This document shows positions 1 through 60,100 of a DNA stretch of 60,162 nt, in pieces. Under the pieces are notes generated by a model that worked only from the letters and a program-made list of their open reading frames with translations, made no database searches and had not been told where the DNA came from. This DNA is from a virus. The stretch's first letter is position 1. Each line of letters starts with the position of its first letter. A program made the translations under genes and the position numbers. The stretch covers positions 1 to 60,162 of IMG/VR virus record IMGVR_UViG_3300035703_000098; one strand, written 5' to 3'.

Positions 1-127
1 GATCGCTGCCTGTTTGTTTGCGGCGAAACGGTCCACCGCCCTTGTTCGTCTCGCTTCTGATCTGGATCAAACGCATACCGCTCGACCGCCGGTTTCTTCG
101 TGGCTCCGTCCTGATACAACCACTTCA
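1..127. repeat. Terminal direct repeat, left copy (circular closure)
   Basis: The first 127 bases are identical to the last 127 (60036-60162). A reverse-strand reading frame runs through the join without interruption, so the two ends are the same locus sequenced once and overlapped. The exact match and a length of 127 suit an assembly k-mer overlap of a circular or circularly permuted molecule better than physical phage ends, although short physical repeats cannot be excluded. Confidence 0.95.
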
Positions 128-2597: not shown

Positions 2598-3823
2598 TAG
2601 AGAAACATCCTGAGTGGGCTTTGTCGAAGATGATGAGGGAAGCAACCGCCTTCATCTGCTGCAGACCAGCCGTCGTACTCGCGAGTTCCGGCGGTCCCGG
2701 TCAGGCCGACGATATTGCCGGTGGGGTATTGGGTGTCCGTGCTGCCGGAACTGAATGCTGTCCCGTTCCGCGACAGAATGTGCGTGCTGCCGGACGAATA
2801 GTTTCGGATGACATCCCAGGCCGTCAGGGACTGTGTGCCAGACGTGTATACGAACGTCGCCGATCCACCAACGAAACGAGCAATCCGCCAGGTGTTGTCA
2901 GCCGGCCGGAAGTAACCGATGTAACCCTCATTCTGATCGGTCGTCGTTGACCGACGAATCCAGACACCAACGCCGGATGATCCGCTGTGACTGATGGCTG
3001 CCTGCGCCCAGTGATTCGAGCCGCTCAATGTGGTCGTGAATGATAGACACGGCCACGCACTGGCATCCGTGCAACGACAGATCGTGCCAGGATTCGTGAA
3101 CGTACCACGGCCCTGAGTCCAGTTGTTGAGATTGCCCGCGTTGAAATCATCGCTGACAGAAGTGTGAAACGCGGCCGGCAACAATCCTGCAGCCCGTAGA
3201 TCGGACGGAATCAGAGTGGTCGTCTGCGGGTCAGGAGCAACCCCGGTATCAACAGCGATTTCGTGGCACAGCCAACCCAGCCACTCCGCGCACAGTTGCT
3301 GACTGCTACTCCACAATCGACGCAATTCCGCATGAATGTGTGGAATCCACTTCGCGAAGGCGTGCGGATGGAGTCGCGTGAATCGTTCGCAGTAGACACT
3401 TTGTCCGAACAGCACAGTCAGGTAATAACCGTCCGGCTCGCGAGTCGGCCACAGTGGAAGAGTCCCTTCGCCAGCAGGATCAGAGCCGTCCAGCAGCGAA
3501 TAGACGCAGGCCCGCTGCAGCGTTTCGATTGAGTTCGGCAAACTGACGCGAAACATCGCCTGCCAGGCATCGCGTTCTGACGTTCCGAAGTCGATTTCGG
3601 ACCAGTCACCCACGCCGAAAACCGTGTAGTCGCTGGGGACGTCAACCGGATCGCAATCGAGTTGCCACAGTCCGCAGCCGCGTTCCGTCGCGCCATCGCC
3701 AGCGACTGCAGATTCACGCTGAGCGCAGTCCGACAAATCGAGCGTCGCCAGCACAGCCCCCGCATCTGGAGCTGACCAGCCGCCGTCTCTCATCTGCCAC
3801 GGTCCCGCGACAACGCAGCTCAC
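2597..3823 (-). CDS. Putative tail fibre/adhesin with C-terminal concanavalin-like domain
   Basis: 408 aa. GTG 3823 overlaps the upstream stop as GTGA. Residues 1-215 are Trp- and Cys-rich and unrecognised. From about residue 225 (DDFNAGNLNNWTQGRGTF) to 400 the sequence resembles a LamG/concanavalin-like jelly roll: the DDF...W opening, alternating strands (GVGVWIRRS, EGYIGYFRP, WRIARFVGG) and a closing TREYDGW. Such domains bind glycans, so a host-receptor or cell-surface-binding tail protein is the best guess. It is coupled at both ends to neighbouring structural-type genes. Confidence 0.55.
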   Translation of the reverse strand: MSCVVAGPWQMRDGGWSAPDAGAVLATLDLSDCAQRESAVAGDGATERGCGLWQLDCDPVDVPSDYTVFGVGDWSEIDFGTSERDAWQAMFRVSLPNSIETLQRACVYSLLDGSDPAGEGTLPLWPTREPDGYYLTVLFGQSVYCERFTRLHPHAFAKWIPHIHAELRRLWSSSQQLCAEWLGWLCHEIAVDTGVAPDPQTTTLIPSDLRAAGLLPAAFHTSVSDDFNAGNLNNWTQGRGTFTNPGTICRCTDASAWPCLSFTTTLSGSNHWAQAAISHSGSSGVGVWIRRSTTTDQNEGYIGYFRPADNTWRIARFVGGSATFVYTSGTQSLTAWDVIRNYSSGSTHILSRNGTAFSSGSTDTQYPTGNIVGLTGTAGTREYDGWSAADEGGCFPHHLRQSPLRMFL

Positions 3824-4131
3824 TGATCGGCCTCCGTGCTGCTGACCGCTTTCGTGCCAAACGCCATCCGGTCCAAAGCTCGATCAAATGAATCTGAAGC
3901 ACGCTGAAACTGCTTCGTCTGCTCCGCTTCCTGACGCTCAAGTTGCCGCTGATGTCCGGCCTCGATGCGTTCCACGGCTTCAAAGATCGCGGCACGTTCA
4001 CCGGGAATAACGCGTTCGCCAAAGTAGTACAGGCCGCCGCCAATAACCGCGATCAGCATCATCACAAGCACGTTGAGGAATGGTTGCCCGGTAAACCACT
4101 TTACCAGCATGCCCAGGCTGTCTTTCGACAT
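3820..4131 (-). CDS. Single-TM coiled-coil membrane protein (holin or spanin candidate)
   Basis: 103 aa from ATG 4131 (MSKDSLGM); an upstream in-frame codon at 4164 lacks a good ribosome-binding site. One strong membrane segment (NVLVMMLIAVIGGGLYYFG, about residues 18-37) is followed by a charged amphipathic helix rich in Glu, Gln and Arg. The one-TM plus long-coil layout fits an i-spanin or an atypical holin, but also other small membrane proteins. It lies directly after the portal gene. Function not proven. Confidence 0.6.
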   Translation of the reverse strand: MSKDSLGMLVKWFTGQPFLNVLVMMLIAVIGGGLYYFGERVIPGERAAIFEAVERIEAGHQRQLERQEAEQTKQFQRASDSFDRALDRMAFGTKAVSSTEADQ

Positions 4132-4213
4132 GATTGTCACAATCCTGCTCCACCAGAACCACAATGACCGCCAGTGTCAGGCCTGCCCGCCATCGACTGA
4201 CAACCCCGCTGTA

Positions 4214-6825: not shown

Positions 6826-8322
6826 TCACCTGACTCCCTGATTCTCCAGTCGAATGCCGTGCCGATACCGACTGCTTTCGTGCGACTTCGCGACGCGGTC
6901 GATCGTGACGCCGGACGTGACCGCCTCGCTGTAGAGCAGATACCGCAGACAATCTGCAAGATGGTCCTTGACCTTGAGCGGCTCGCGCGCCGGCGATCGA
7001 GGATTGAGCACGTTGGTCTTACTGCTTCGCACCCAGCGATACGTCCGCAGTTCCCTGATCAGATTCCGGCAGCTCTCATGGATGATCAGACCCGGCCCGT
7101 TGAAGCGGGCCTGTGCCTTCATCGCCAGCTGGACGTGCTCGATGCCGGCCCGGACGTTCTTCCGCGCGCCCTGGATGCTGATATTGTCGCAATGCGGTTT
7201 GTGCCTGCTGAGCTGTCCTGCCATCAGCATTGACGATGGATCGGCGGTGTCAGCCCACGTTGGCCCCCAGACCAATGTGTCCGGCTTCCAGCCCCAGTCC
7301 TTCGATCTCTGATCCACCAGTTCCAGATAATCCGGAGTCGTCAGACGGTCCGTGACATAGAGTTCGTCGTAAACCACCCAGCGTCCGGACGACTCGCGAT
7401 ACGCCCACAGGCAAGCGAATGGATGCTCACCGCCGGAACCCCAATCGATCGCGCGAGCATGGTACACACCGCGCGGGAATGTGATCTCCGAGTCCCCGCG
7501 AACGTGAGTGCGCACCGTGAACGACGGATAGATCGTGCCATCGAACGCGCCGAACTCCCCGATCTGTCGAACCAGCAGCATCTCCGGCGGCACCATTCCG
7601 AAGAAGTCGTCGTACCACTGTGCGGTCACATGCCCGGCTTCAAGCGCGCATTCCGTGTTCGCCCGATAGATGCCCCACGTTGGTGGCACACGATCCTGCT
7701 CGATCATCTCCTGCAACTCGAAACACAACTCAGGGTCGATCGGAGTGAACTCAGCCAGCTTGTTGCCGGTGTAGGAATACTCGCGGCATCCACGATACAC
7801 CTCCTGAAACAGCCCCCATGGGAATTGCTCCGTAAACGCGAATCCGCCGATCGACCGGGCGCTCATCTGGTTGAGCTGCTGCCGCCATGACTTGAACTCC
7901 AGCACCCAGTTCGCGCGCGGATTCACATCGGGCCGATCATGCGTGTACTTCGGCCAGGGACGCAGCGGCACCGTGGAAGGATGCCCCTTCTTCGCGTCGA
8001 GCCAGCTGATTCGCTTCCAGTCGATCTCCGATTCTGGAATGTGCCCGTGCCCCAGCAGTTTTTCCTTCCAGCAAGCTTCACATGACTGCACATAGGAGCC
8101 GGCCACGATCCAGAACGGAGTGTCAGGACGCGGAGGCGGTTGCTGCTGCAGCACGAACTCAGCCACCTTCGCCAGCATCGTCTCCGTAGTGCCCGCTCCG
8201 TTTCCGCCCAGGAGAAACGTCGGACCGGCATGCTGGCTGAAGAAGAACGATTCCTGCTGATCGTACCGGTCAGGTTGATCGGGCCGCGGAGTCCAGGCGT
8301 TCCATTCGCAGGTCGCGATCAT
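6826..8322 (-). CDS. terL: Terminase large subunit
   Basis: 498 aa; ATG 8322 overlaps the small-terminase stop (ATGA). The N-terminal ATPase domain begins with FLLGGNGAGTTETMLAKVAE, a P-loop in which the usual Lys of GxxGxGKT is Thr. The C-terminal RNase H-like nuclease starts at ARAIDWGSGGEHPFACLWAY, and DHLADCLRYLLY near the end is typical of large terminases. It translocates and cuts genome DNA at the portal. The overlap with terS and position before the portal confirm the assignment. Confidence 0.92.
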   Translation of the reverse strand: MIATCEWNAWTPRPDQPDRYDQQESFFFSQHAGPTFLLGGNGAGTTETMLAKVAEFVLQQQPPPRPDTPFWIVAGSYVQSCEACWKEKLLGHGHIPESEIDWKRISWLDAKKGHPSTVPLRPWPKYTHDRPDVNPRANWVLEFKSWRQQLNQMSARSIGGFAFTEQFPWGLFQEVYRGCREYSYTGNKLAEFTPIDPELCFELQEMIEQDRVPPTWGIYRANTECALEAGHVTAQWYDDFFGMVPPEMLLVRQIGEFGAFDGTIYPSFTVRTHVRGDSEITFPRGVYHARAIDWGSGGEHPFACLWAYRESSGRWVVYDELYVTDRLTTPDYLELVDQRSKDWGWKPDTLVWGPTWADTADPSSMLMAGQLSRHKPHCDNISIQGARKNVRAGIEHVQLAMKAQARFNGPGLIIHESCRNLIRELRTYRWVRSSKTNVLNPRSPAREPLKVKDHLADCLRYLLYSEAVTSGVTIDRVAKSHESSRYRHGIRLENQGVR

Positions 8323-8945
8323 TCTGAATCCATCTCTGGTCCAGTAATCATTCCGCCGTTGATAACCGGCCCGCCGAGTCCCCTGCGTTCTTCCTCTCGT
8401 TGCAGCCTGGCCAATGTCTGTCGGCGCAGTTCGTCACGCCCGCGCCCGGCGATTCGGTCCGACTCATCCGGCTCCGCGTCATCAGCATCGTCTTCCAACT
8501 GTCCGACGCGCAACCCGATACCACAGTTTCGTGCGTAGACCGGCCTCCGGGCCTTCAGAATGAAGATCGCCAGCTGATCGCTGTATTCACGCTCCAGATA
8601 CTGCTTCTTGGTTTCTGGATCAATTATTGGCTCACCTTTGGCGTTGAACTTCTTCTTCACAACGCCCTGAAATGCGCGGCGCATGACCTCGCCTTCGAGC
8701 AGCTGCGTCGATTCTTCGATGGCCGCTTCGTAGGCCGCGCGATAAGTGGCAGACTTTTTCAACCAGCGGTCGTGGAGATTGAACACCGTGTGGTAGGTCA
8801 GATTCATCGCGCGAGCGGCATTGGCGATTGTGCCGACTTCAGGCAGCACTTTGAGGAATGCCTTGAGCCGCGGCGGGAAGTTGGCCGGATCTCCATCGCG
8901 ATCCTTGATTGATGGCGCTCCCACCCTCCGCTTCTGAGTGGTCAT
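8319..8945 (-). CDS. terS: Terminase small subunit
   Basis: 208 aa. The N-terminal third is a helix-turn-helix typical of small terminases (FLKVLPEVGTIANAARAMNL, then VFNLHDRWLKKSATYRAAYE), followed by an oligomerisation helix region (LLEGEVMRRAFQGVVKKKFN) with YLEREYSDQLAIFILKARRP, and an acidic/basic tail. It recognises packaging DNA and feeds the large subunit, with which it overlaps by 4 bp. Confidence 0.9.
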   Translation of the reverse strand: MTTQKRRVGAPSIKDRDGDPANFPPRLKAFLKVLPEVGTIANAARAMNLTYHTVFNLHDRWLKKSATYRAAYEAAIEESTQLLEGEVMRRAFQGVVKKKFNAKGEPIIDPETKKQYLEREYSDQLAIFILKARRPVYARNCGIGLRVGQLEDDADDAEPDESDRIAGRGRDELRRQTLARLQREEERRGLGGPVINGGMITGPEMDSE

Positions 8946-8977: not shown

Positions 8978-10159
8978 TCAGTCTTCGGAGTCCGAGTCAT
9001 CGTCCGAATCGTCATCGGACGCGATACCGGCAGCAGTGTCACTCGATAGCGGCGAACCAGAGCTGAGCGATGCGCCCCGCTTCCGGGCCTCTCGACGCAG
9101 GCCGGCGATCTGATGCGGAGTCAATGTGCCGCCCGCAGCGATCAGTCGTTCGCGAATTTCCTGATTCGGCATCTCCGGATTGTCCGCAATCAACGTCAGG
9201 ACCATCTCACGCTGCTGTTCGTCCGATGGAGTGCCTGCCGTGCCCGATTGCACAGCCTGTGTTACATCGCCACTGTCGTCACCATCTTCAGCCTCACCGG
9301 ACTGTGAATCATCAGCCGGTGGAGCGTACAGCGTGCTCTGTGGCGTCTTCAAAGGCACCTGCCGCCGCTCTGCGATGGCCAGCACCTCTTCGCCAGTCAG
9401 GATCGGCCATTGCCTTAGAACCTGATGCAGAAACGCGCCTTCGGCCAGGTACTCTGCAACCTGCTGTTCGGTCGGACGTTCTTCGCTGCGAATGCGTTCA
9501 GACCGCTGTTGTTCTCGCGTGGCTCGCTGATCCACTCGTTGCAATCGAGTCTGCAGTTCGCGTTCGCGGCGAGTCCTGTTTGCCACATCCGACGGATGTT
9601 CCCAGCTTGCAGGGATGACCGACCCCGGCTGCTCCGCTTCCTTGTCGATCAAATGCGACATGACAGCACTGCGAGCATTGAAAAACGGACCGATCCACCG
9701 TTCGCCGTCACGATGGCCGTAGATTTTTGCGATCTGGATGTCGGACACCTTCTGCTCTCGCAGAGTCCGCACGGATTCCACCAGGCGGGATGTTGGCAGT
9801 GACACTCCGCGACGCGCATCGACCACAGCCCGGACAGCCGCGTAGAACGTCGGCTGCGGTTCGAGCGTATGAGCCACAAACTCACCCTGCTGATACAACT
9901 CCCATTGATGCTCCAGCCGATTGATCGCCAGCGTGAGTTCCAGACAATTCTCCGGAATGTCCCCTTTGGAGACCGCTACGAACATGATCTCCATCATGTC
10001 GCCGAGCGCACTATCCGGCGAGATGACCGTTGTTTTCTCATCATTGGCCCATTCGTCATAACTTTTGACGAACTCATCCACCCGACGCAGAATCCATTCT
10101 CGCCGTCTCGCCATGTCCGAATCAGTCGCATTTCCAATCGGAATCGCAGCAGCAGTCAT
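8978..10159 (-). CDS. Hypothetical protein upstream of terminase
   Basis: 393 aa. ATG 10159 overlaps the upstream stop (ATGA). No family recognised. The N-terminal half is helical; a segment SDIQIAKIYGHRDGERWIGP looks like a helix-turn-helix. The C-terminal part has several HTH-like repeats (NQEIRERLIAAGGTLTPHQI) and ends in an Asp/Ser-rich tail (SDDDSDDDSDSED). Two putative DNA-binding segments and a place directly before terS suggest a role in packaging recognition or late regulation, which is only inference. Confidence 0.65.
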   Translation of the reverse strand: MTAAAIPIGNATDSDMARRREWILRRVDEFVKSYDEWANDEKTTVISPDSALGDMMEIMFVAVSKGDIPENCLELTLAINRLEHQWELYQQGEFVAHTLEPQPTFYAAVRAVVDARRGVSLPTSRLVESVRTLREQKVSDIQIAKIYGHRDGERWIGPFFNARSAVMSHLIDKEAEQPGSVIPASWEHPSDVANRTRRERELQTRLQRVDQRATREQQRSERIRSEERPTEQQVAEYLAEGAFLHQVLRQWPILTGEEVLAIAERRQVPLKTPQSTLYAPPADDSQSGEAEDGDDSGDVTQAVQSGTAGTPSDEQQREMVLTLIADNPEMPNQEIRERLIAAGGTLTPHQIAGLRREARKRGASLSSGSPLSSDTAAGIASDDDSDDDSDSED

Positions 10160-10719
10160 GTTGTTCGCATTCCTTCGATGAAATTCACACATTGAGCAAT
10201 CGCGTCCGCGGCCTCGCGTTCCAGCTCCCCATGCCCATGCGATCTATCCGCGTGATCGACCAGTTTCGCAGCCAGCAACCGCATACGTGCAAGTTCCACC
10301 GGCCTGACCAGCCGCGCGGCCTCGAACGCCGGTCCGCCGGCGAGACTGACAGCCTCGTAGTATTTCAGCGCACGGCGCCGCCTGAGCGGTGCAATCCACC
10401 GGGCAAACAGCGAGGCCTTCGCGGCCGACTCCACCAACGCCAGCAGATTGTGCAGGAAAAGTGAATCGGCCTCACCTTTGTCGTCGGCAGTAACACCCTC
10501 CGCGTACATCCAGTCGTGGATATTGCAGGCCTCAGTGATCGGCAGGCCGTAGACGGTGTCAGGCACCAGCGTGCCCTTCCACCCGCCAGTGCCGCAGCCG
10601 TTGCAGTTCAAGCGGCGTGTCTCGCAGGTGGCAGACCAGTAGCTGACCGGCGCAGACAGCGACCCGCGCCGCTGGAGTGCGACCGGGTTGCTGTAGACTG
10701 ATCCGGGCAGGCCTGGCAT
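10156..10719 (-). CDS. Phospholipase A2-like protein
   Basis: 187 aa. CNGCGTGGWKG resembles the calcium loop and ACNIHDWMYAEG resembles the catalytic helix of secreted phospholipase A2, whose His-Asp dyad is normally in HDxCY. The remaining helices (ADSLFLHNLLALVE, ALKYYEAVSLAGGPAF) are consistent with a compact all-alpha enzyme. No signal peptide is present. Start ATG 10719 follows a GGAG at 10 nt. If active, it would hydrolyse membrane phospholipids during entry or lysis. Next to it are a Gly/Ala-rich hydrophobic protein and, further upstream, a secreted-type protease. The family match comes from motif recognition only. Confidence 0.65.
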   Translation of the reverse strand: MPGLPGSVYSNPVALQRRGSLSAPVSYWSATCETRRLNCNGCGTGGWKGTLVPDTVYGLPITEACNIHDWMYAEGVTADDKGEADSLFLHNLLALVESAAKASLFARWIAPLRRRRALKYYEAVSLAGGPAFEAARLVRPVELARMRLLAAKLVDHADRSHGHGELEREAADAIAQCVNFIEGMRTT

Positions 10720-10726
10720 GTGCGTG

Positions 10727-11212
10727 TTACTCCGGCTTGCCGAGTTCGAGCAGATATCGCGGCGAAGTCGTTTCGCCGCCGGTTGAATCAGGAGCGGCCG
10801 GAGCAGTGGCAGCCGGCTGTTGAGTGAGCAGGTCTTTCAGCGCGGACATGCCCAGCGGAATGCCCACCGCCGCCCCAGCGCCGGACCCGATCAGCGCCGC
10901 CGCGACGCCGGCCTTCGCCAGCGCGCCGAGCTTTGACGCAGGCGCGGATCCCGGAGCGGACGGGGTGCTGGCGGCTGGTTCCGGCGGAACAGTGATGGTC
11001 ACGGTAGAGTCAACCAGAATCATGTCATCGCCCGCTGATTGCATGTCTGACTCATGGTGATTATCACCCCACGCCATCCGCTGTGCCCGCTGCCAGTTGG
11101 CCGTCGCCTTCCGCTCGCTGCGCAGTGTCATCGCCTCCGCCAGAAAGCCCCGCAGTTTGAGGAGCGAACTGGTTGTCGTCTGCCGATTGGTGGTATCTGC
11201 TGCGGAGGTCAT
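10727..11212 (-). CDS. Hydrophobic Gly/Ala-rich protein (possible membrane or holin-like)
   Basis: 161 aa. The N-terminal half is charged (RSERKATANWQRAQRMAWGD); a Pro/Ala/Ser linker leads to a long hydrophobic Gly/Ala segment (ALAKAGVAAALIGSGAGAA, about residues 98-125). ATG 11212 has AAGGCAGAG upstream. Its place beside the phospholipase-like gene makes a membrane-active lysis role conceivable, but a structural role is equally possible. Confidence 0.6.
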   Translation of the reverse strand: MTSAADTTNRQTTTSSLLKLRGFLAEAMTLRSERKATANWQRAQRMAWGDNHHESDMQSAGDDMILVDSTVTITVPPEPAASTPSAPGSAPASKLGALAKAGVAAALIGSGAGAAVGIPLGMSALKDLLTQQPAATAPAAPDSTGGETTSPRYLLELGKPE

Positions 11213-11348
11213 CGAGTCTCTGCCTTACCACTGAAGACACTGTTCCGTTCAAGCCAGCAGACAGCACGTCATGCGCTGCCTGCTGCGCCAGTTCTTCGTC
11301 CGCGAGGATCTCACGGGCGAAGTCCGAGAGGTGATTACTTGCTGGCAT
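11064..11348 (-). CDS. Possible small overlapping gene
   Basis: 94-aa ORF starting MPASNHLSDFAREILADEEL, with a plausible helical N-terminal half covering the 122-bp gap between the two neighbouring genes. Its C-terminal half overlaps the next gene by about 150 bp in another frame and becomes Gly/Ala-rich low-complexity sequence, which weakens the case. No strong ribosome-binding site is seen. Either a real overlapping gene or an incidental ORF. Confidence 0.35.
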   Translation of the reverse strand: MPASNHLSDFAREILADEELAQQAAHDVLSAGLNGTVSSVVRQRLDDLRSRYHQSADDNQFAPQTAGLSGGGDDTAQRAEGDGQLAAGTADGVG

Positions 11349-11670
11349 CGGGAGCATTGCCGGGCTGACCAGCGGCGGAACGAGCCAGCAGCACGTCTTT
11401 CGCCATGCCGGATTCCAGGTTGGTCGCGGCCTTCGCGCCGACAAGCTGAATCGCCGACTGATGGACGAGCTGAGTCGTTTCGGCAATGAAATTCGCGGCG
11501 TTGTTGTGCCGCACAGCACCAGCAGCAAAACCCTGCTGCAGAGTCGTCTGAGTTGACGAGTAACCTTGATCCATCGCAAGCCGGATGGTGGCATCCACTT
11601 CGTTCGCCATGACTGGCATCTCCACTGAAACAGGAACCGGAACGTCAATCACACCATCACCAGACGGCAT
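11335..11670 (-). CDS. Hypothetical helical protein
   Basis: 111 aa starting MPSGDGVIDVPVPVSV. The body is alanine-rich and helical (FIAETTQLVHQSAIQLVGAK) with evenly spaced Gln and Ala, as in small phage head or scaffold-type helical proteins. No known domain. It is the first gene after the tRNA-like element at 11703-11767. Confidence 0.55.
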   Translation of the reverse strand: MPSGDGVIDVPVPVSVEMPVMANEVDATIRLAMDQGYSSTQTTLQQGFAAGAVRHNNAANFIAETTQLVHQSAIQLVGAKAATNLESGMAKDVLLARSAAGQPGNAPDASK

Positions 11671-11702
11671 GTGTCACACTCTTTCTTACTGCTGAATCCG
11701 GA

Positions 11703-11767
11703 AGCCGGTGACTGGATTTGAACCAGCACTCCACCATCATGGTCGCTCGCCGTTGGCGTACACCGGC
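11703..11767 (-). tRNA. tRNA-like element with truncated anticodon arm
   Basis: The reverse strand folds as acceptor GCCGGTG/CACCGGC (7 bp), D arm CGC-loop-GCG with a GG in the loop, and T arm GCTGG-TTCAAAT-CCAGT. Only about 11 nt are left for the anticodon arm (ACC-ATGAT-GGT), too short for the normal 17 nt, and no CCA is encoded. It lies entirely within the 103-bp gap between two minus-strand genes. It is probably a degenerate tRNA or a tRNA mimic for RNase P/Z processing rather than a decoding tRNA. Confidence 0.55.
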
Positions 11768-11773
11768 CGTGTC

Positions 11774-12871
11774 TCACTTCGATTTCGTCAGCAGCCGCTC
11801 GTGAAATCTCAGCACGATCGGCTGACCGGGCTGATATGTCTCTGTATCACTCGCGATTACTTTCCCGCTGCCGTCAACCACGTCCAGCCGGACCTGCAGC
11901 GGGCGGGCGCTCGCGTCTTTTCCGGCCGGACCAACTGGCCCTTGTGGCCCTCTCTCGCCCTGCGGTCCGGGCGGGCCGGCCTTGCCACTGGCGGACTCTG
12001 CGAGCTGCTTCCGCAGCGTTGCGACGTCGCGTTCCAGCGACTCGATTCGTCGCACTTTTTCGCGGTCCGGAATGTCTCCGGGCAGCTCGATTGGCGGCGG
12101 TGGCACGGCGGCGAGCGGTGCAACAGGCAAAGGGCTGGGCACGCACTCCGGCCGGCAGCGCAGGATGAACTCACGGACGTGATGGCAGGGCGTCAGTCTC
12201 GTCTCGCGGTCCTCACGCGAAATGGAGTTGATCACTCCGACGATCTGACCGCCAGCGATGGCTGGTCCACCGGAATCACCGGGCCGGGCCATCGCATCAA
12301 CCCACGAGTCAGACAGCAGCGGCGCGTCCGCCCACGCTCTCTGATCGCTGTCGCCAAAGCCCCACAGTCGCACCGTTTTCGCAGGGGAATACGACTCGCT
12401 GGCCACAGGAATCGGACGCAGTCCGGTCAGGCCTGGCACATCCAGCAGCGCCACGTCATGACCCGCTTCGGGTCGGTAATCGACGGCAATCACGCGGGCT
12501 GATCGGCCACGAACTTCGACCGCTTGAGCACGGCGAACAACGTGCGCCGCGGTCAGCACAATCGAGCCGCTCTGGCTCGCGCAGATGACCGTTCCAGTGC
12601 CGTTGCCGCGATACTGGACCAGTCGGCAATAACCCGGAGCCGGACACTCCTGCCGCGTCTCTGTGGTCGTGATCGGCACGATGGATTCGACCAGGCCAGG
12701 CTGCGGTTCGGCGGCGGCGACGCTGCTGGCCAGCAGGAAAATCACCGCGATTGCGATCACAGCCGCCATTGCCGCGACGATGCCTTTCGCAATCTCCCAC
12801 AGCATGTCCGGGCCGCAGTATTCGTCATCGTCGATCGCTCGCGCGCGATCTTCAGCCTGCTCAATCCGCAT
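11774..12871 (-). CDS. Membrane-anchored trypsin-like serine protease with collagen-like stretch
   Basis: 365 aa, ATG 12871 with GGAGG 7 nt upstream. A cytoplasmic leader precedes one TM segment (about 28-52, AAMAAVIAIAVIFLLASSV). The trypsin-like domain has His in IVLTAAHVV, Asp in GHDVALLDVPG and Ser in ARPGDSGGPAI, so the triad looks intact. After it come a Pro-rich spacer, a short coiled coil (KVRRIESLERDVATLRKQL), and a collagen-like Gly-X-Y run (GPPGPQGERGPQGPVGPAG). A final beta segment follows. The topology places the protease outside the cytoplasmic membrane. Collagen-like runs are common in phage tail fibres, but the TM anchor argues for a cell-envelope enzyme, possibly for lysis or superinfection interference. 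Confidence 0.85.
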   Translation of the reverse strand: MRIEQAEDRARAIDDDEYCGPDMLWEIAKGIVAAMAAVIAIAVIFLLASSVAAAEPQPGLVESIVPITTTETRQECPAPGYCRLVQYRGNGTGTVICASQSGSIVLTAAHVVRRAQAVEVRGRSARVIAVDYRPEAGHDVALLDVPGLTGLRPIPVASESYSPAKTVRLWGFGDSDQRAWADAPLLSDSWVDAMARPGDSGGPAIAGGQIVGVINSISREDRETRLTPCHHVREFILRCRPECVPSPLPVAPLAAVPPPPIELPGDIPDREKVRRIESLERDVATLRKQLAESASGKAGPPGPQGERGPQGPVGPAGKDASARPLQVRLDVVDGSGKVIASDTETYQPGQPIVLRFHERLLTKSK

Positions 12872-15888: not shown

Positions 15889-16161
15889 TCAGCCCTTCTG
15901 TCCGGACCCTGAATCGGCAGCGCGTTCACTCGTCACTTCTTTGGTAATCTCACGCAGAAGCTTCTTCCCAGCCAAAGTGCCGATCAACGTCGCACCGACT
16001 CCGCCAGACAACATTCCGAGGCCTATCGCCTGTGATACACTGAGGAGCAGTAATCCGACCCACAGGCCAATAAATCCCGCCAGGCAGCCGAACACGCCGC
16101 AAATCAAAAAGAACGACAGAACAACTGTGTTTACTTCTTCCGTTCGCAATTGCATTTGCAT
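15889..16161 (-). CDS. Two-TM small membrane protein (holin-like)
   Basis: 90 aa, ATG 16161 with AAGGGAAA. Two hydrophobic segments (VVLSFFLICGVFGCLAGFIG and GLGMLSGGVGATLIGTLAG) are followed by a charged cytoplasmic tail (KKLLREITKEVTSE). Size and topology fit a class II holin, but it is separated from the other envelope-active genes, so the role is uncertain. Confidence 0.6.
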   Translation of the reverse strand: MQMQLRTEEVNTVVLSFFLICGVFGCLAGFIGLWVGLLLLSVSQAIGLGMLSGGVGATLIGTLAGKKLLREITKEVTSERAADSGSGQKG

Positions 16162-29820: not shown

Positions 29821-30471
29821 ATGGCTCTTCAGCGACTCCTGATCCTGATCGGCAGTATCGGCATCGGCATTGGCTCGTTTCTGCCGTGGCGATGGTTTCC
29901 ATTCGGATTATCCGTCCGGGCCTTTCGCGAATACGGATGGTTGACGGCCATTTTCAGCCTGGCAACGGCACTCATCGCATTGATGGCCGGTCCTCTTGAG
30001 CGTCCCGTCACTCAGCGGAAGTCTGTTCTCGCAGTGCGTGTGATGTGCATTCTTTCCACGCTGATCGTACTGCATGTGATTCATGAGTCAGTAACCTTAC
30101 GGGACAGGCTTGGCCCGGACATCGGTGCTGGAATAGTCATCGGTTCGGCAATTCTGGCCGTTGTTGCATCGTTCATGCGGGAATCGATCACGGTAGCAGA
30201 CCAGCCAGCATCAGAGCCTGCTTTTCATCCAGCTTCTGAGAGTCCAGTCTCGCAGAAGCCGCAACAGCCAGTCCGTACGCAGCCACAGACGCGTTCTCAG
30301 CCACAACCATCGGGCTTCATCCTGAATCGCGAGACGATTCACCTGGTCCCCGAAACCTGGACCGCTCCCTGCCCGTCCTGCAAAACCTCGCTGGTTCTGC
30401 ATCGCTCCCTTCTGCGGATTGATGTGACCTGTGGCCATTGTGGCTCGATCTTTGAGGTGACCTGGCCCTGA
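29821..30471 (+). CDS. Multi-TM protein with C-terminal zinc ribbon
   Basis: 216 aa, ATG 29821 with GAGGAA upstream. Four hydrophobic segments lie between residues 6 and 122 (LLILIGSIGIGIGSFLPW, IFSLATALIALMAG, VMCILSTLIVLHVI, IVIGSAILAVVASFM). A Gln/Pro-rich linker leads to a zinc ribbon (CPSCKTSLVLHRSL, CGHCGSIFEV). Topology and location next to the integrase suggest a lysogenic-conversion or exclusion protein; no family recognised. Confidence 0.65.
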   Translation: MALQRLLILIGSIGIGIGSFLPWRWFPFGLSVRAFREYGWLTAIFSLATALIALMAGPLERPVTQRKSVLAVRVMCILSTLIVLHVIHESVTLRDRLGPDIGAGIVIGSAILAVVASFMRESITVADQPASEPAFHPASESPVSQKPQQPVRTQPQTRSQPQPSGFILNRETIHLVPETWTAPCPSCKTSLVLHRSLLRIDVTCGHCGSIFEVTWP

Positions 30472-30486
30472 TCTGGAGACCTGCCG

Positions 30487-31374
30487 ATGAAGACCACGTT
30501 CATCGTCGCCGCCGCCGTTCTGCTCGCAAAGATCGCTTGTGCTCAACCGGATGAACCGGCTCCCGACAAGTCACAGCAGGCTCAGACTGAGAAGCAGACG
30601 CCGAAACCAGCTCGCCCGGCTTCCATCGACCCACGATTGCTGGCAGCTGGCCGCGGACTGAAGGATTCGAGTTGGGATGCTCAGCTTCGATCCATTCAGG
30701 AACTGAAACAGGATTGGGGACCGCGCGCGACACCGCTGCTTCCAGACATCTGCACCGTCGCCTGCACTCGCAATCTGAAAACGAGACAGGCCGTTGCTGA
30801 ACTGATCGAAGCCATCGACCCGGAGCTTTACGACGCCATCGTTCCCGTGCTGGTGGATCAGGATCCAACGCAACGACACAAAGCCCTTCAGGCATTACCG
30901 GCAGCCAGAAACGGGAAGGCAGCAGTTCCCCTGGTTGTCTGGTTGGCGAGACAGAATCTGGCGATCGCCGGGACCAGATCTGACACCTATTCGGTCGGCA
31001 ACTACGAGGCTCGCCAGTGCCTGAGAACCGCCGTTGAACTTGATGGATCAGACCGCTCTGTCATTGATCTGATTCACGACGTCGTGTCAGGCAGGATCCG
31101 AAACAGCGACGCAGTGAGCGTGGCCGTCCTGCTGATGCCGAAGCTGTCTCGCGAAAAGCCATTCGGCCAGAAGAGTGTGGACCTGCTCGTTGATCTGCTG
31201 AAGAAAATGCCTCGCAACTCCCCACACGCGACCGGACCGATCAAGGCGCTGGAAGAGTTCGGACCAGAGGCACGATCTGCGCTGCCGGTACTGAGAGCAG
31301 CAAAGTTGTCATCTCAGGTATCCGTTCGACAGGCCGCCGAAAACGCGATTGTTGCGATTGAACAAACTCCCTGA
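30487..31374 (+). CDS. Secreted HEAT-repeat-like protein
   Basis: 295 aa, ATG 30487 with GGAG 8 nt upstream. The N terminus (MKTTFIVAAAVLLAKIACAQ) is a signal peptide with a likely cleavage after AQ. A Gln/Pro spacer is followed by repeated two-helix units (WDAQLRSIQELKQDWGPRAT, AVAELIEAIDPELYDAIVPV, KSVDLLVDLLKKMP, ALEEFGPEARSALPVLRAAK), typical of HEAT-like solenoids. Exported HEAT proteins are common in planctomycetes. Between the attachment site and the divergent control region it is a likely lysogen-expressed cargo gene. Confidence 0.7.
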   Translation: MKTTFIVAAAVLLAKIACAQPDEPAPDKSQQAQTEKQTPKPARPASIDPRLLAAGRGLKDSSWDAQLRSIQELKQDWGPRATPLLPDICTVACTRNLKTRQAVAELIEAIDPELYDAIVPVLVDQDPTQRHKALQALPAARNGKAAVPLVVWLARQNLAIAGTRSDTYSVGNYEARQCLRTAVELDGSDRSVIDLIHDVVSGRIRNSDAVSVAVLLMPKLSREKPFGQKSVDLLVDLLKKMPRNSPHATGPIKALEEFGPEARSALPVLRAAKLSSQVSVRQAAENAIVAIEQTP

Positions 31375-31688: not shown

Positions 31689-32774
31689 ATGCCGCGCAAA
31701 CGACGCACGAAGCCGGCCTACCAACTGCACAAGGCGACCGGCCAGGCGAGGGTCCGCATTGACGGACGAGACTGCTATCTGGGGGCACACGGATCCCCGG
31801 AATCGAAGACGCTGTATCAACGCCTCGTCCGCGAATGGATGGCGCGACAGGACGGGCTGGCGACGACTGTCGGCGACGTTGCTGCCGCCTGGCTTGAGCA
31901 CGCGGACGGCTACTACCGCAAGAACGGCGCGCGGACTTCGGAATACGCGTGCTTCAAGGCCGCGTGCGATTTCCTGAAGCCATTCGCCGGTGAACTGGCT
32001 CTGGACTTCGGACCGCGAAAGCTGAAGAAGGTCCAGGACGCGATGGTTGCGGCCCGGCTGGCCAGGACCACAATCAACCGCCAGACCAGCCGCATCAAGC
32101 AGGTCTTTCGCTGGGCGGTGTCCGAAGAACTGATCCCGGCGGACACGCTGGCGGCGCTGGAATCAGTCAGCGGTCTGCGTAAGGGCCGGACGGCAGCGGT
32201 CGAAACCGAACCAGTCGGGCCAGTGTCGATTGAGCACGTCGAAGCGATCCAGTCCCATGTCAGCCGGCCTGTGTGGGGCTTGATCCAGTTCCAGTTGCTG
32301 ACGGGCTGCAGGCCCGGGGAAGCATTAAATCTGCGTTGGTGCGACATCGACCGCCGCGGCGAGGTCTGGCAATACCACCCGCGCGAGCACAAAACCGAGC
32401 ATCACGAACGCGACCGCGTGATTTGCATTGGCCCGGATGCTCAAGCCCTGCTGGCACAATATCAGGAAGAGGAATCCGAATTCGTGTTCTCGCCGCAATC
32501 AGTGCGGGAAGTCGTTCCGGACGGGACTCGACAGCCAGGCAGGCGATACGACCGCAGCGCGTACCGGAATGCCGTTGTGCGAGCTTGTCGCCGGGCGGGG
32601 ATCCCGGAATGGACTCCGAACCAGCTCCGGCACACGGCAGCCACTCAATTGCGGTCCCGATTCGGGCTGGAAGTCGCTCGGACGGTTCTGGGGCACAGCA
32701 CAGTCCGCATGACAGAAGTTTACGCGGAACAGGATCTGGAACAGGCCCGGAAAGCGATCCGGCAGATCGGTTGA
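31689..32774 (+). CDS. int: Tyrosine recombinase integrase
   Basis: 361 aa. The catalytic residues are visible: Arg in LLTGCRPGEALNLRW, His/Arg in NQLRHTAATQLR, His in TVLGHSTVRM and the nucleophile Tyr in TEVYAEQD. The N-terminal YQLHKATGQARVRIDGRDCY resembles the style of planctomycete tyrosine recombinases, and ATTVGDVAAAWLEHADGYYR starts the core-binding domain. It would recombine attP at 31514 with a host tRNA-Ala gene. The start ATG 31689 is bracketed by a hairpin. Confidence 0.92.
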   Translation: MPRKRRTKPAYQLHKATGQARVRIDGRDCYLGAHGSPESKTLYQRLVREWMARQDGLATTVGDVAAAWLEHADGYYRKNGARTSEYACFKAACDFLKPFAGELALDFGPRKLKKVQDAMVAARLARTTINRQTSRIKQVFRWAVSEELIPADTLAALESVSGLRKGRTAAVETEPVGPVSIEHVEAIQSHVSRPVWGLIQFQLLTGCRPGEALNLRWCDIDRRGEVWQYHPREHKTEHHERDRVICIGPDAQALLAQYQEEESEFVFSPQSVREVVPDGTRQPGRRYDRSAYRNAVVRACRRAGIPEWTPNQLRHTAATQLRSRFGLEVARTVLGHSTVRMTEVYAEQDLEQARKAIRQIG

Positions 32775-33388: not shown

Positions 33389-33745
33389 TCATCGGTGATT
33401 TTCCGGAGTCAGCCATCGCAGCAGAAGCACCCACAGGTCTGTGGCTGTTGGATCGCGCGGAAGCCGGTGTTCGTCATGGACGACTTCCGCTGCGGTTTCC
33501 ATTGTGCCTTCGGTGTCTGCAACTGGTCCGATTAACTCGCGACCGTCCAACTGCGCCTGTCTTCGCAGACTGATTTCGTGAAACGCAGCCAGGGCCAGCG
33601 CACACAGCATGTCGAACTGCTCAATCGGCAGTTCGCGAACGCGATCGTGATCTTCGCTGAGCAGTGAGTCGATCAGATTCGCGCGGTCTTCCCCGGAAAG
33701 TGCCTGAAACGAATCGGCGATGTCAGGCCAGAGCAGGTCTGACAT
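33389..33745 (-). CDS. Hypothetical last gene of the late operon
   Basis: 118 aa from ATG 33745 (MSDLLWPDIADSFQALSGED); an earlier start at 33814 would overlap the glycosyltransferase by 91 bp. Helical throughout (LIDSLLSEDHDRVRELPIEQ, MLCALALAAFHEISL). No family recognised. It ends 7 bp before the bidirectional terminator. Confidence 0.55.
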   Translation of the reverse strand: MSDLLWPDIADSFQALSGEDRANLIDSLLSEDHDRVRELPIEQFDMLCALALAAFHEISLRRQAQLDGRELIGPVADTEGTMETAAEVVHDEHRLPRDPTATDLWVLLLRWLTPENHR

Positions 33746-35642
33746 GGAAATCAGCCGGCTCAGTGTCGGATCGTGCTTTCGCGGCTGAGATGGATTCCGG
33801 CTCGTCATCGACATCTGCCCGGCTGATGTGCTCGCACTCGATCGACCAGTCCATCAGCGTGCGCCAGTGGGTCTGTTCCAGTCGTGTGAATCTGGCCCGA
33901 TCGTAATCAGGAGACGACACGCTGGCGAACGAATCCGCTCGATCGGTGAAAACTCCCAGATCGAACATCTGCCGGCGCATCAGCGCGCAGCCGAATCCTG
34001 TGCCGCCAACCTGCTGGATCCTTTCGGACGGCTTGTCGGTGAATCGCAGATCGAAGGCGCGACCGCGATCCCAAGCGATCCATGTGCCCCAATACGGCGA
34101 GCGATACGCCCCGGATACACAGATCACGTCGTGTTCGACGCTCGCCATCAGTCGGCCGATCACGTTCGGTGTTGGTACGAAGACGTCGTCTTCGAGAATA
34201 AAGGCGTATTCCGTCGCGAGGTTTCGTCGCAGCCAGTTGTAAATCCGGGCCATCGCCGTCCAGACATGCTCCACGGCAGGACGATTGCCCGGATGTCGCC
34301 GATCCACGTCAGCCACTCGCGGCGGACCAACAGGTTGCCGGACATGGCGGATGTCGGACCAGCGGGAGCGATTCATCCAGCGGCGGACTCTGGCGGCAAA
34401 CGTGTCTGACTGTGACGTGTCGAACAGGATCAGCGAGAGTTGATCTGCCGGCCAGTCGAGCACTTCGAGCTGTGCCGCATACCGGTCCCACAATTCGGCG
34501 CGACCCGACAGCGGGCAGAACACGGTGACCGGCTCCTGCATCAGATTCGCGCGATCGGCATACGTCAGCAGTTTGTGCTTCCGGATCATCGAGTTCGGAT
34601 GCTGGCGGTACAGGTACCTGGCAGGCTGCTTTGCGGCGGTGTAGCCGTATCGGATCAGCCGTTTCCACAGCGTCCAGTCGTCATGCGTGTTGATCGACGT
34701 GAGCGGATGGAAGGCATCAGCCTGCCTCAGTGCAGAGATGCGGCACAATGAGCCGGCGTGAACACAGTTGTCGATCCAGAAGCGGCTGCGATCGAACTGC
34801 GCGGGATACTCCATCAGGCGGTCGTCGAGACCGAATCGCTGCATGTCGCTGTAAACGATGGCTACGGTCGGATCGCCAAAGTGCTGCAGGCCGGCCAGGT
34901 AGTCCGGCGGCAGCATGTCATCCGCATCCAGGAACACGATCACTTCCGCGCCGGCTTGTTCGGCCAGATGGGCCGCATGCTGCCTCGCGCGATGCACGCT
35001 GCGGAGCTCGACTCGATGCCGCGGCACTCCCAGACGAGCGCAAACCTCAGGCGTCTCGTCATCGGACGCATCATCAACCACGAAGACCTGATGCGTTTCG
35101 TGCCGCAACGCCCGAACGGACCGGATGCAGTCTTCGAGGAACCGGCCGTAATTGTGGCAGATGATGGCGATGGTGGTCTTGAGCGGCGACGATTCTCGCT
35201 CCACCGGTGGTTCCGCAATGATCGGACTTCGACTGCTCAACTCGGCCACGATTTCGCGCGCGTCAGGAGTTCCGTGTCGGACGTAATCCGGGCAGTGACC
35301 GCAGAACTGGAAGCCGTCAGTCGCTGACAGGATCGTGACCAGTCCCGCAGAGGCATGATCCGGATGCCGGCAGGCGAACGCTGGTTGTCCGCCACTGCTG
35401 CACGAGCACGGCGCGGTCGAAGCCTGTTGCCGGGTGTCACAGAATTCGCATCGCGACCTCAGTGCCGCCGTTAGTTCCGCCGGATCAACGCGCTCCGCCG
35501 TCGAAGGCGGAACCGGAGGTCGGGGAATACGTGCCGGCGACAGTGTGGCCCGCGTTCGATCTCGATCCTTTGAATGAATCGGGCAGGAATCCGGCGGACG
35601 CCGGGATGTAACACAGATGCCGTTCGATGTGCGACAGGTCAT
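33723..35642 (-). CDS. Two-domain glycosyltransferase in the tail operon
   Basis: 639 aa; ATG 35642 overlaps the upstream stop (ATGA). Residues 60-125 form a Cys-rich region (CEFCDTRQQASTAPCSCSSG, FQFCGHCPDY). From about 155 a GT-A family 2 domain: TIAIICHNYGRFLEDCIRSV, VFVVDDASDDET, VIVFLDADDMLPPDYL. From about 370 a second glycosyltransferase-like domain: VTVFCPLSGRAELWDRYAAQ, YAFILEDDVFVPTPNVIGRL, GGTGFGCALMRRQMFDLGVF. Phage glycosyltransferases modify virion proteins, DNA or host surface sugars. Lying within the tail operon rather than near DNA-modification genes, virion or receptor glycosylation is likely. Confidence 0.8.
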   Translation of the reverse strand: MTCRTSNGICVTSRRPPDSCPIHSKDRDRTRATLSPARIPRPPVPPSTAERVDPAELTAALRSRCEFCDTRQQASTAPCSCSSGGQPAFACRHPDHASAGLVTILSATDGFQFCGHCPDYVRHGTPDAREIVAELSSRSPIIAEPPVERESSPLKTTIAIICHNYGRFLEDCIRSVRALRHETHQVFVVDDASDDETPEVCARLGVPRHRVELRSVHRARQHAAHLAEQAGAEVIVFLDADDMLPPDYLAGLQHFGDPTVAIVYSDMQRFGLDDRLMEYPAQFDRSRFWIDNCVHAGSLCRISALRQADAFHPLTSINTHDDWTLWKRLIRYGYTAAKQPARYLYRQHPNSMIRKHKLLTYADRANLMQEPVTVFCPLSGRAELWDRYAAQLEVLDWPADQLSLILFDTSQSDTFAARVRRWMNRSRWSDIRHVRQPVGPPRVADVDRRHPGNRPAVEHVWTAMARIYNWLRRNLATEYAFILEDDVFVPTPNVIGRLMASVEHDVICVSGAYRSPYWGTWIAWDRGRAFDLRFTDKPSERIQQVGGTGFGCALMRRQMFDLGVFTDRADSFASVSSPDYDRARFTRLEQTHWRTLMDWSIECEHISRADVDDEPESISAAKARSDTEPADFHVRPALA

Positions 35643-53096: not shown

Positions 53097-53168
53097 TGGC
53101 GGAGGACAGAATTGAACTGTCTGTCTCCAGCTTATGAGGCTGGCGAGATACCGGTTCTCCACTCCGCG
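53097..53168 (-). tRNA. tRNA-Met(CAT), initiator-like
   Basis: 72 nt. Acceptor arms CGCGGAG and CTCCGCC pair except for a C1-C72 mismatch. D arm GAG-AACCGGTAT-CTC (A11-T24), anticodon arm CCAGC-CTCATAA-GCTGG (anticodon CAT), variable AGACA, T arm GACAG-TTCAATT-CTGTC, discriminator A. A 1-72 mismatch with A11-T24 are initiator signatures in bacteria; three G-C pairs in the anticodon stem, another signature, are absent. No CCA is encoded. It lies in the gap between two minus-strand genes. Confidence 0.88.
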
Positions 53169-57100: not shown

Positions 57101-60100
57101 GTCCTCGCCGCCCTTGATGCGCGCCGCTCGCTCAAAGTCTTCGATCGTCTTCGGGTTCTCCACTCCGGCCTTCATCTCCGCGATTTTTGCCTGCCGCTCT
57201 TCGGTAACGGCTTTACGCTGTGCTGCGTGCTTCTGGATGTGGTCGTCGGTCAGTTCATCAAGCCTCTTCGCGATCGCGTTAGCCTTTGCGGCCTTCATGT
57301 CGCCACTCATCTGATAACTGATGCCACGGTCGGTCACATTCAGCGACTCGCCACTCATCCAGTTCTGCATCAGACTATTGATTAGATCGGCCTTCTTTTC
57401 GCGACCGACCCAGCCGCGTGCGCCGCGCTTCTTTAGGTCTGCGACGCTCATTTTCTCCAGTTCACCGCGCACAGCTGACTGGAACTCCGGCGACTGCATT
57501 TCCTTGTGCCATTGCCGGACTTCATTTGCTGTTGTTTCTCCACGATCAAGGCGATCGTGCATTTCCGCGAGCCTGGCGATGCTGTACGGCGGCAGGTCTG
57601 TCCTTTCCGCTGCTGGTAATGGCATGTCGGCCTTCATCGATGTCGTTTGCTGTCGCTGTGAGAACTCTTCGAGCATCCGTTTCGCCAATGCGGGATTACT
57701 GGCAATGATGTCCTTCATCGCCGCTTTCGCGTCTTTGAGCGTTCTGCCGTTTTTCTGAACTGTACTAAGTGCAAGGGCATCTCCATGCTTCTCGAATAGC
57801 TCGCGAGCCTCGTCACGAATCTGAGATGACTCAAGTCGTTCTTGTCTTGCTTCTTCCACCTGCGACTTCTTCAGGTCATCAATCTGTCTGTCAATGTCAC
57901 CCCGTTTGCTGAGTGGCACATTGACTTGAGCCGTATCGACACCCTTTGAAGCCGCCTTCGTCGCTTTCCTTGCACGAACATACGCATCATCAGACGGTCG
58001 CGAACCCGCCTTCGACAACTCCCGCTGTCTCGCCACTAGATCCGGGTATTCCTGCAGTACATCATCGGGCACGTAGATGCCGCGCGCCAGATAACCCTCG
58101 ACGTGATTCTTGTGCTGTCCTAACTGCTCCTCCACGGCTCTGACCTGATAATCTCTCAGCGTAACGCCTTGCCGCATCAAGTCGGCCTTGCGCTCCTGTG
58201 TTAGATAGCCTTGCAGATGCCGAGGCCTGTCTGCTTTGGCCCAATCGCTGGCTGCCTGCTGCGCGGCATCGTAGGCCAGCCGCCGCTTGTCGAGCCGATG
58301 GAGCTTGTCCGCCTCTTCGGCTGTCATACTCTCCCACGCCTCTTTCGACCTGTCGTCGCCGACATCTACCAACTCCCGTTGCCCATCCAGCGGCTTGTTC
58401 GCGGCAGCTCGTTCCTCGTCCGCGTCTGAGATCTTCTCCAGCTCCGACTTCGGCACGGCAGACTCAGTGGACTTCGTGGACGACTTCGGCGCCGACACAT
58501 TGAACAGCTTGCCCTGTGAGTCCGGATTGAACAGGTTCTGCTGCTGGCCGGGGACGGTTGGCTGAGATGTTGCTCGCTCAGGTGTTTCTGGGCGCGCAGT
58601 CGGTAGTACCAATCGCGGATCAATCTCCTTCGTCGGCTCAGCTTGCTTTGACTCCGGCTTCCAATTGGGCATGTCCGCTGTCGCCACTAACACATTCTTA
58701 CCCCGCAACACGGCGCGAACTTCCGCTTGTGTGCCGCCTCCGTATGTGGCAATCGACAACTTTTCTCCGGGCTTCATCCTGGTCTTGAGCTCGTCCAATG
58801 TTGTGACGCCAGCAAACCTGCCTTTCCCGCCGCGAATTTCGCCAAGCTGTCGCTCGTTATTCTGCTTTAGCTTTACTGCACTGGAAGACGAGCGATTTCG
58901 TTCGGCCAGCTCGTTGGCGGCATTGGGCATCGCGTCTGCGTACTCGCGAAGCACTTCATCCGGAATTGAATCCGGATCGTAAATCAATGCGGCCTGCACC
59001 CATTCCTGATGATGGCCGGAATCATCTTGGCCGATCAGGAACTTACCGCCTGCAGGATCGAGTGCGTTGGCATACTCATCGGAAGTCAGCGTCCATGGAT
59101 CACGCCCGGTTGCTTTGCGGACGGCATGACCGCCTGATCTTGCGCGAGATGACAGCGCCGACTCGGACACCTTGCGACCACTTGACGACTTCGCTGCCAC
59201 ATCCGAACTGGACACCTCGCCGCTTCCATCTTTCGCCGGCTGTTTCTTACCTACTTCATGCGGCTTCTTGCCGTGCAGGGCCGGAACGGTCGGGTGGCTG
59301 GCAATCCGGCCTTCGCCGTCCAGCAGAACCGGAGTGCCGCCCGCGTGCTCCTTGCCGTCCTCTTCGTGACCGCCGATCGTCACCCAGCGGAATTCGCCCT
59401 GACCCTTCGCGGACTGGCGGGCGTAGCGCTCGCAGGCAACCCGCATCGCATACGACAAAGAATACCTGTTGACATCCCCATCAGAATGACGACCATCAAT
59501 ATCGGTCCCTTCAGAAGACGGGCGAGCCGTCCTGGGCGTTCTGTGAGGGGAGTCGGCACTCGCCGATTCATCCACTCTCGACCCTTTTTTCTTCTGAAGG
59601 GACTTTAATGCCAACTCTCGTCTGCCAGTCCTGACAGCCTGAATTGTGACGACATGACCGTTGAATCTCTTGCTGAACAATAACTGCAAACTCCCATGTG
59701 CATCCCGCTTCCGCAGCAGTTCCACATGGTCAGGCGAAGCCATGATTTCGGGTATCTTCATGAAGTCTTCGCGGCTGATCGGCAATTGCGATCGACTTGC
59801 TTCAATAGCCGGATCCGAATGACGATTAACGGCATGCCGCACATCATCAGCATCAATGATCAGGCTGTAACCTTCGACATCAACGCCAGTAGCAACTCTG
59901 ATCTTGTCAGCACCGATTTGGCTGACATCGGCATAATAAACCGCATCCCGGCCAGCAGCTTTTGACGACAAAGCGCGGTCAACCAATTGGCTAATTTCAG
60001 CAAGACCGCCTGTTCGCGTTCCTTGCGGTAAACGTGATCGCTGCCTGTTTGTTTGCGGCGAAACGGTCCACCGCCCTTGTTCGTCTCGCTTCTGATCTGG

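Follow-up and report, generated by a model that had tools for sequence, protein, structure and literature searches.

A predicted phospholipase A2 and an exported protease in a putative lysis cassette of a probable planctomycete phage without a recognised endolysin

How might a phage open its host when no peptidoglycan-cleaving enzyme is recognised in its genome? The question is raised by a locus in the 60,162-nucleotide stretch of viral DNA analysed here (the window), for which a reading made from the letters alone (the sequence-only reading) had proposed an endolysin-free lysis module. In that proposal a membrane-anchored trypsin-like protease, a Gly/Ala-rich hydrophobic protein and a phospholipase A2 (PLA2)-like protein replace peptidoglycan cleavage by cleavage of protein and lipid in a planctomycete host. 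All three genes are located together, as described, within 10156-12871 on the minus strand. A 111-aa ORF at 11335-11670, absent from that reading, also belongs to the set, and the order of transcription is the 365-aa protease, the 111-aa protein, the 161-aa hydrophobic protein and the 187-aa PLA2. Downstream of the PLA2 gene follow a 404-aa conserved protein and then both terminase subunits. Only short gaps separate the module genes, and the end of the PLA2 gene overlaps the start of the 404-aa gene, so the module genes look like one operon. Small membrane proteins are represented by a borderline segment in the 161-aa protein within the module and by two transmembrane (TM) candidates, at 3820-4164 and 15889-16161, that are not adjacent to it. 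The features are as follows.

11774-12871 (-): predicted exported trypsin-like serine protease, 365 aa (Pfam; TM segment and ribosome-binding site; triad in two relatives)
11335-11670 (-): soluble protein of 111 aa, N-terminus MPSGDGVIDV (tblastn and alignment with L058:11268-11558)
10727-11212 (-): 161-aa protein with a Gly/Ala-rich hydrophobic segment, candidate membrane protein (hydrophobicity; 35-37% identity to L058:10743-11240)
10156-10719 (-): predicted phospholipase A2, 187 aa (profile match, AlphaFold model, Foldseek, conserved residues)
8978-10192 (-): 404-aa protein kept upstream of terminase in planctomycete phages; its start overlaps the PLA2 end
8319-8945 (-): terminase small subunit (phrog_4044, 1.2e-15)
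6826-8322 (-): terminase large subunit (PHROG, 1.2e-14)
3820-4164 (-): candidate holin, 114 aa, with one N-terminal TM segment (residues 29-47) and a charged helical C-terminus; no convincing family match
15889-16161 (-): second candidate holin, 90 aa, hydrophobic with a charged C-terminus; no family match
31689-32774: integrase

An exact 127-bp direct repeat is present at both ends of the window (1-127 = 60036-60162), and the rightmost ORF reads in frame across the junction into the leftmost one, so that the contig represents a closed circle of about 60,035 bp. The gene inventory is therefore complete, and the absence of a recognised endolysin carries more weight than in an incomplete genome. 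All portal-protein relatives detected in a bacterial genome collection came from Planctomycetota MAGs (3/3), one of which is assigned to the Planctomycetaceae and carries a syntenic prophage-like contig. With the caution usual for MAG binning, the host is probably a planctomycete, in agreement with the earlier guess, and the explanation favoured below takes the phage to be a temperate one of this group.

The search for muralytic genes covered every plausible gene of the closed genome. Thirty likely proteins were scanned one by one against Pfam, followed by ten more; 66 ORFs, those ten included, were compared with Pfam and PHROGs, and 30 proteins with PHROGs. No lysozyme, amidase, transglycosylase or endopeptidase family was found in either library at E-values down to 0.01-1, so the statement that the window has no muralytic domain anywhere was borne out at the level of profiles. 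Five related planctomycete phage contigs (G042, G001 and G043-45) likewise showed no muralytic family among the top 25 Pfam families listed (best E about 1e-8). Many window genes match no family in Pfam or PHROGs. One match of phrog_938 ('endolysin') to 3-644 was rejected; the alignment is confined to one domain, an inorganic pyrophosphatase (InPase), of a very large polyvalent protein.

The identity of the 187-aa protein was examined by profile and by structure. A family profile built from 38 phage relatives matched the solved PLA2 structure 1faz (E=6.8e-8), and the AlphaFold model (pLDDT 87.8) retrieved PLA2 structures as its top three Foldseek hits (two with probability 1.0, one with 0.77), the only convincing fold. 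The protein carries a calcium loop, NGCGTGG (residues 40-46), together with H68, D69, Y72 and D85; the 38 sequences show no variation at G43, H68, D69, Y72 or D85, and in a further PLA2 set H, D and G were present in 29/29 and D85 in 23/29. From sequence and model together, the 187-aa protein is a predicted enzyme and a genuine member of the PLA2 superfamily, of the secreted type, in line with its initial description as PLA2-like. It resembles the secreted bacterial and fungal PLA2s of Streptomyces violaceoruber (1faz) and Tuber borchii (4aup) in fold, HD catalytic motif, Asp partner, calcium loop and disulfide position, and differs from them in being phage-encoded, in its C-terminal helical extension and in having no signal peptide. 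Cys42 and Cys65, which we take to correspond to the classical C29-C45 disulfide pair of secreted PLA2s, are kept or lost jointly (36 C/C, 6 with neither and 0 mixed among 42 sequences), and both are present in 29/29 of the further sequences. A signal peptide is missing from 41/42 members, the window PLA2 included. Retention of a disulfide pair in a protein with no signal peptide would fit release of the PLA2 to the periplasm at lysis.

The genes that surround PLA2 in other phages bear directly on its function. In 12 of the 15 records with a muralytic Pfam match, the muralytic gene is no more than 1.5 kb from PLA2, compared with 2.6 expected for uniform position (P about 3e-8; families were located in whole records). 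Separately fetched records, found by a scan with a four-sequence PLA2 alignment, reproduced the association (8/10 within 1.5 kb, 1.2 expected, P about 1e-6). Both P-values are optimistic, as the records are related to one another and the uniform-position null ignores shared ancestry. The neighbours belong to six different families (GH108, M15_4, M15_3, Amidase_2, Amidase_3 and Phage_lysozyme), which argues that the association arose repeatedly. Individual loci pair PLA2 with an Amidase_2-like gene (L003 and L007), an M15 peptidase (L008 and L010), Amidase_3 (L032) or a phage lysozyme (L005), and holin-like TM proteins and lipoproteins stand alongside in loci of this type. Small TM proteins were found within 1.5 kb of PLA2 at 20/30 loci (0.27 at control positions) and small lipoprotein-like ORFs, by a crude motif count, at 8/30 loci (0.00 at control positions). 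Exceptions occur in Vibrio phage 1.097, where PLA2 is flanked by TerL and a head completion gene and lies away from the M15 gene, and among Mu-like prophages. PLA2 thus appears, from gene neighbourhoods, to be a recurrent component of phage lysis cassettes, probably one that usually works beside an endolysin; this conclusion is firmer than the one that the phage has no endolysin. Searches of the open-licence PMC literature returned no account of PLA2 as a member of phage lysis cassettes, so that a secreted-type PLA2 would be a recurrent and apparently undescribed part of these cassettes, next to six kinds of endolysin. A separate family of 190-250 aa ('YRFSDPDGPGRSGYSFGxCQFDLRHN'; L003:8542-9225, L004:8888-9631) occurs near PLA2 in three loci and is possibly an endolysin.

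Proximity to lysis genes could also reflect the habit of lysogenic conversion genes to settle there, as with staphylokinase and pla2 of Staphylococcus sciuri phage phi575. The phi575 phospholipase is encoded downstream of the lytic module, carries a signal peptide and has been proposed to be a secreted virulence factor (PMC5390265), and the window phage, with its integrase, also encodes further exported cargo, an SNase for example. The signal peptide of phi575 Pla2 sets it apart from nearly all of the PLA2 members collected here, and PLA2 genes are often nested within the lysis operon, on the same strand and overlapping their neighbours. We consider a cargo origin very improbable, the least credible of the readings discussed.

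The protease gene (11774-12871, -) matches Pfam Trypsin_2 (E=1.7e-10) and Trypsin (E=8.5e-8). The Trypsin_2 domain occupies residues 91-213 (about 12601-12233) and is followed by a coiled coil, a short collagen-like GXY run and a C-terminal beta domain. A single strong TM/signal segment is located at residues 30-48, with a good ribosome-binding site ahead of M1, and the H/D/S triad is intact in the window protein and in both relatives (G001 and G042). These features support the predicted export of the protease and uphold its initial description as a TM-anchored trypsin-like enzyme. The triad and export are shared with HtrA/S1-type proteases (Trypsin_2), from which the window protein differs in having no PDZ domain and in possessing a coiled coil, a collagen-like run and a C-terminal domain of its own, and its relatives in carrying a CxxC segment. 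Direct sequence searches for protease relatives among viral contigs and phage records returned none, and phmmer against the PDB gave no match; the Trypsin_2 genes of G001 (a match below the curated cut-off) and G042 were reached only through linked portal and PLA2 records. An AlphaFold model built from the 3 sequences had a pLDDT of 45.7 and was set aside. In the protease relatives at L055:2653-3930 and L058:11561-12706, a CxxC, thioredoxin-like segment that is missing from the window copy lies past the trypsin domain.

In G001 the protease is accompanied by a 96-aa protein and a 165-aa hydrophobic protein in the same order as in the window. Since this order is kept at 31-37% identity, the protease, 111-aa and hydrophobic proteins form, judged by comparison, a real three-gene unit. 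The 161-aa protein contains one borderline hydrophobic segment, GVAAALIGSGAGAAVGIPL, at residues 102-120 (about 10909-10853); a search for further relatives of this protein returned G001 again and nothing else. G042 (portal 59%, TerL 56% identity) encodes an exported protease with the CxxC segment followed by two small TM proteins. The protease and PLA2 genes are apart in G001 and PLA2 is missing from G042, which argues against an obligate four-gene unit. The joining of the protease unit with PLA2 is, as far as the sequences compared extend, specific to the window.

These relatives also supply part of the case for a role in virus entry, in which PLA2 would breach a membrane in the manner of the PLA2 of parvovirus capsids, the protease with its collagen-like stem would act as a fibre-like protease of the virion, and the hydrophobic protein would be ejected. 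The module adjoins the packaging genes; PLA2 adjoins the head completion gene in Vibrio phage 1.097 and capsid genes in G001; the G042 protease is located among tail genes; and collagen-like stems such as that of the protease are also found in phage fibres. However, a TM/signal segment is odd for a protein assembled into virions in the cytoplasm, and most PLA2 genes lie beside endolysin, holin-like and lipoprotein genes rather than structural genes. Protease export and the PLA2 neighbourhoods thus weaken the alternative, named in the sequence-only reading itself, that these are virion components only, and we regard it as improbable.

The explanation we favour, at about even confidence, is a late lysis (egress) cassette: PLA2 released by a holin would attack membranes and the exported protease would attack envelope proteins. 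Its place, directly before the terminase genes, resembles that in lambda. PLA2 would be synthesised in the cytoplasm, lacking a signal peptide, cross the inner membrane once a holin-like protein had opened it, and fold in the periplasm with a C42-C65 disulfide; its hydrolysis of phospholipids may then destabilise the outer membrane, so that the enzyme acts like a spanin or as an auxiliary factor. The protease would be exported to a membrane-anchored or periplasmic location, probably as a multimer held by the coiled coil and collagen-like stem, and cleave envelope proteins, and the hydrophobic protein may perturb the inner membrane or anchor there. Enzyme activities, timing and the roles of the protease and hydrophobic protein are what we infer from these features. 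A link to lysis is well supported by comparative sequence evidence for PLA2, moderately for the protease, whose ties are limited to export, operon position and small TM neighbours, and weakly for the hydrophobic protein.

Whether such a cassette acts without any muralytic enzyme is a separate matter. Planctomycetes are now known to possess peptidoglycan. The PLA2 and protease could therefore be auxiliary, the true endolysin being encoded elsewhere in the genome and too diverged for Pfam or PHROGs, with lysis otherwise ordinary. PLA2 accompanies a muralytic enzyme in most relatives, many window genes have no family match, and several PLA2-bearing records of more than 35 kb also have no match to the endolysin families tested, so that absence is weak evidence. 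Against this stand the closed genome, searched in two libraries at permissive thresholds, and the lack of muralytic families among the top Pfam matches listed for the five related contigs. We view a diverged endolysin as a serious though less likely alternative. Of the original proposal, the lysis role of PLA2, protease export, the host and the lack of a recognised endolysin in a complete genome are supported; that the phage opens its planctomycete host without any muralytic enzyme, through the protease, membrane protein and PLA2 dismantling the envelope in place of peptidoglycan cleavage, seems unlikely. No description of phage lysis of planctomycetes was found in the literature searched; the locus points to a planctomycete phage group in which PLA2 and an exported protease may fill the lysis slot without a recognisable endolysin.

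Among known systems, the canonical holin-endolysin-spanin cassette of phages of Gram-negative bacteria shares with the favoured egress cassette its position before terminase, as in lambda, and PLA2 relatives are embedded in such cassettes (the 12/15 and 8/10 above); the window differs in having a protease and PLA2 instead of a recognised endolysin or o-spanin. The closest precedent appears to be the hypothesised cassette of phage WO (Wovirus), which has no endolysin genes and for which a patatin phospholipase and a holin-like protein were proposed as the lytic cassette (PMC9203015). Both phages combine the lack of a recognised endolysin with PLA2 activity (predicted here) beside a small holin-like TM protein (a candidate here), and both have phage relatives with a GH108 lysozyme in that slot and a host with an unusual envelope. 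The WO patatin is an unrelated serine-dyad lipase, whereas the window protein has the His/Asp, calcium-dependent PLA2 fold and is not patatin-like by profile or Foldseek. WO encodes an ankyrin protein where the window has an exported trypsin-like protease, and peptidoglycan, present in planctomycetes, has not been detected in Wolbachia.

Several other features of the genome were observed. The polyvalent protein, roughly 2,200 aa, spans the contig junction (54170-60154 joined to 3-644) and contains InPase, PBECR3 nuclease and methyltransferase domains. An SNase-like nuclease with a signal-like N-terminus (1001-1432, -) has a counterpart directly after PLA2 in G001 and another in G042. Adjoining the integrase, 29821-31374 (+) encodes a four-TM zinc-ribbon protein and an exported HEAT-repeat protein, probably cargo. 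A tRNA-Met gene (53097-53168, -) lies amid structural genes, and a family 2 glycosyltransferase (33723-35642, -) is encoded inside the structural gene region.
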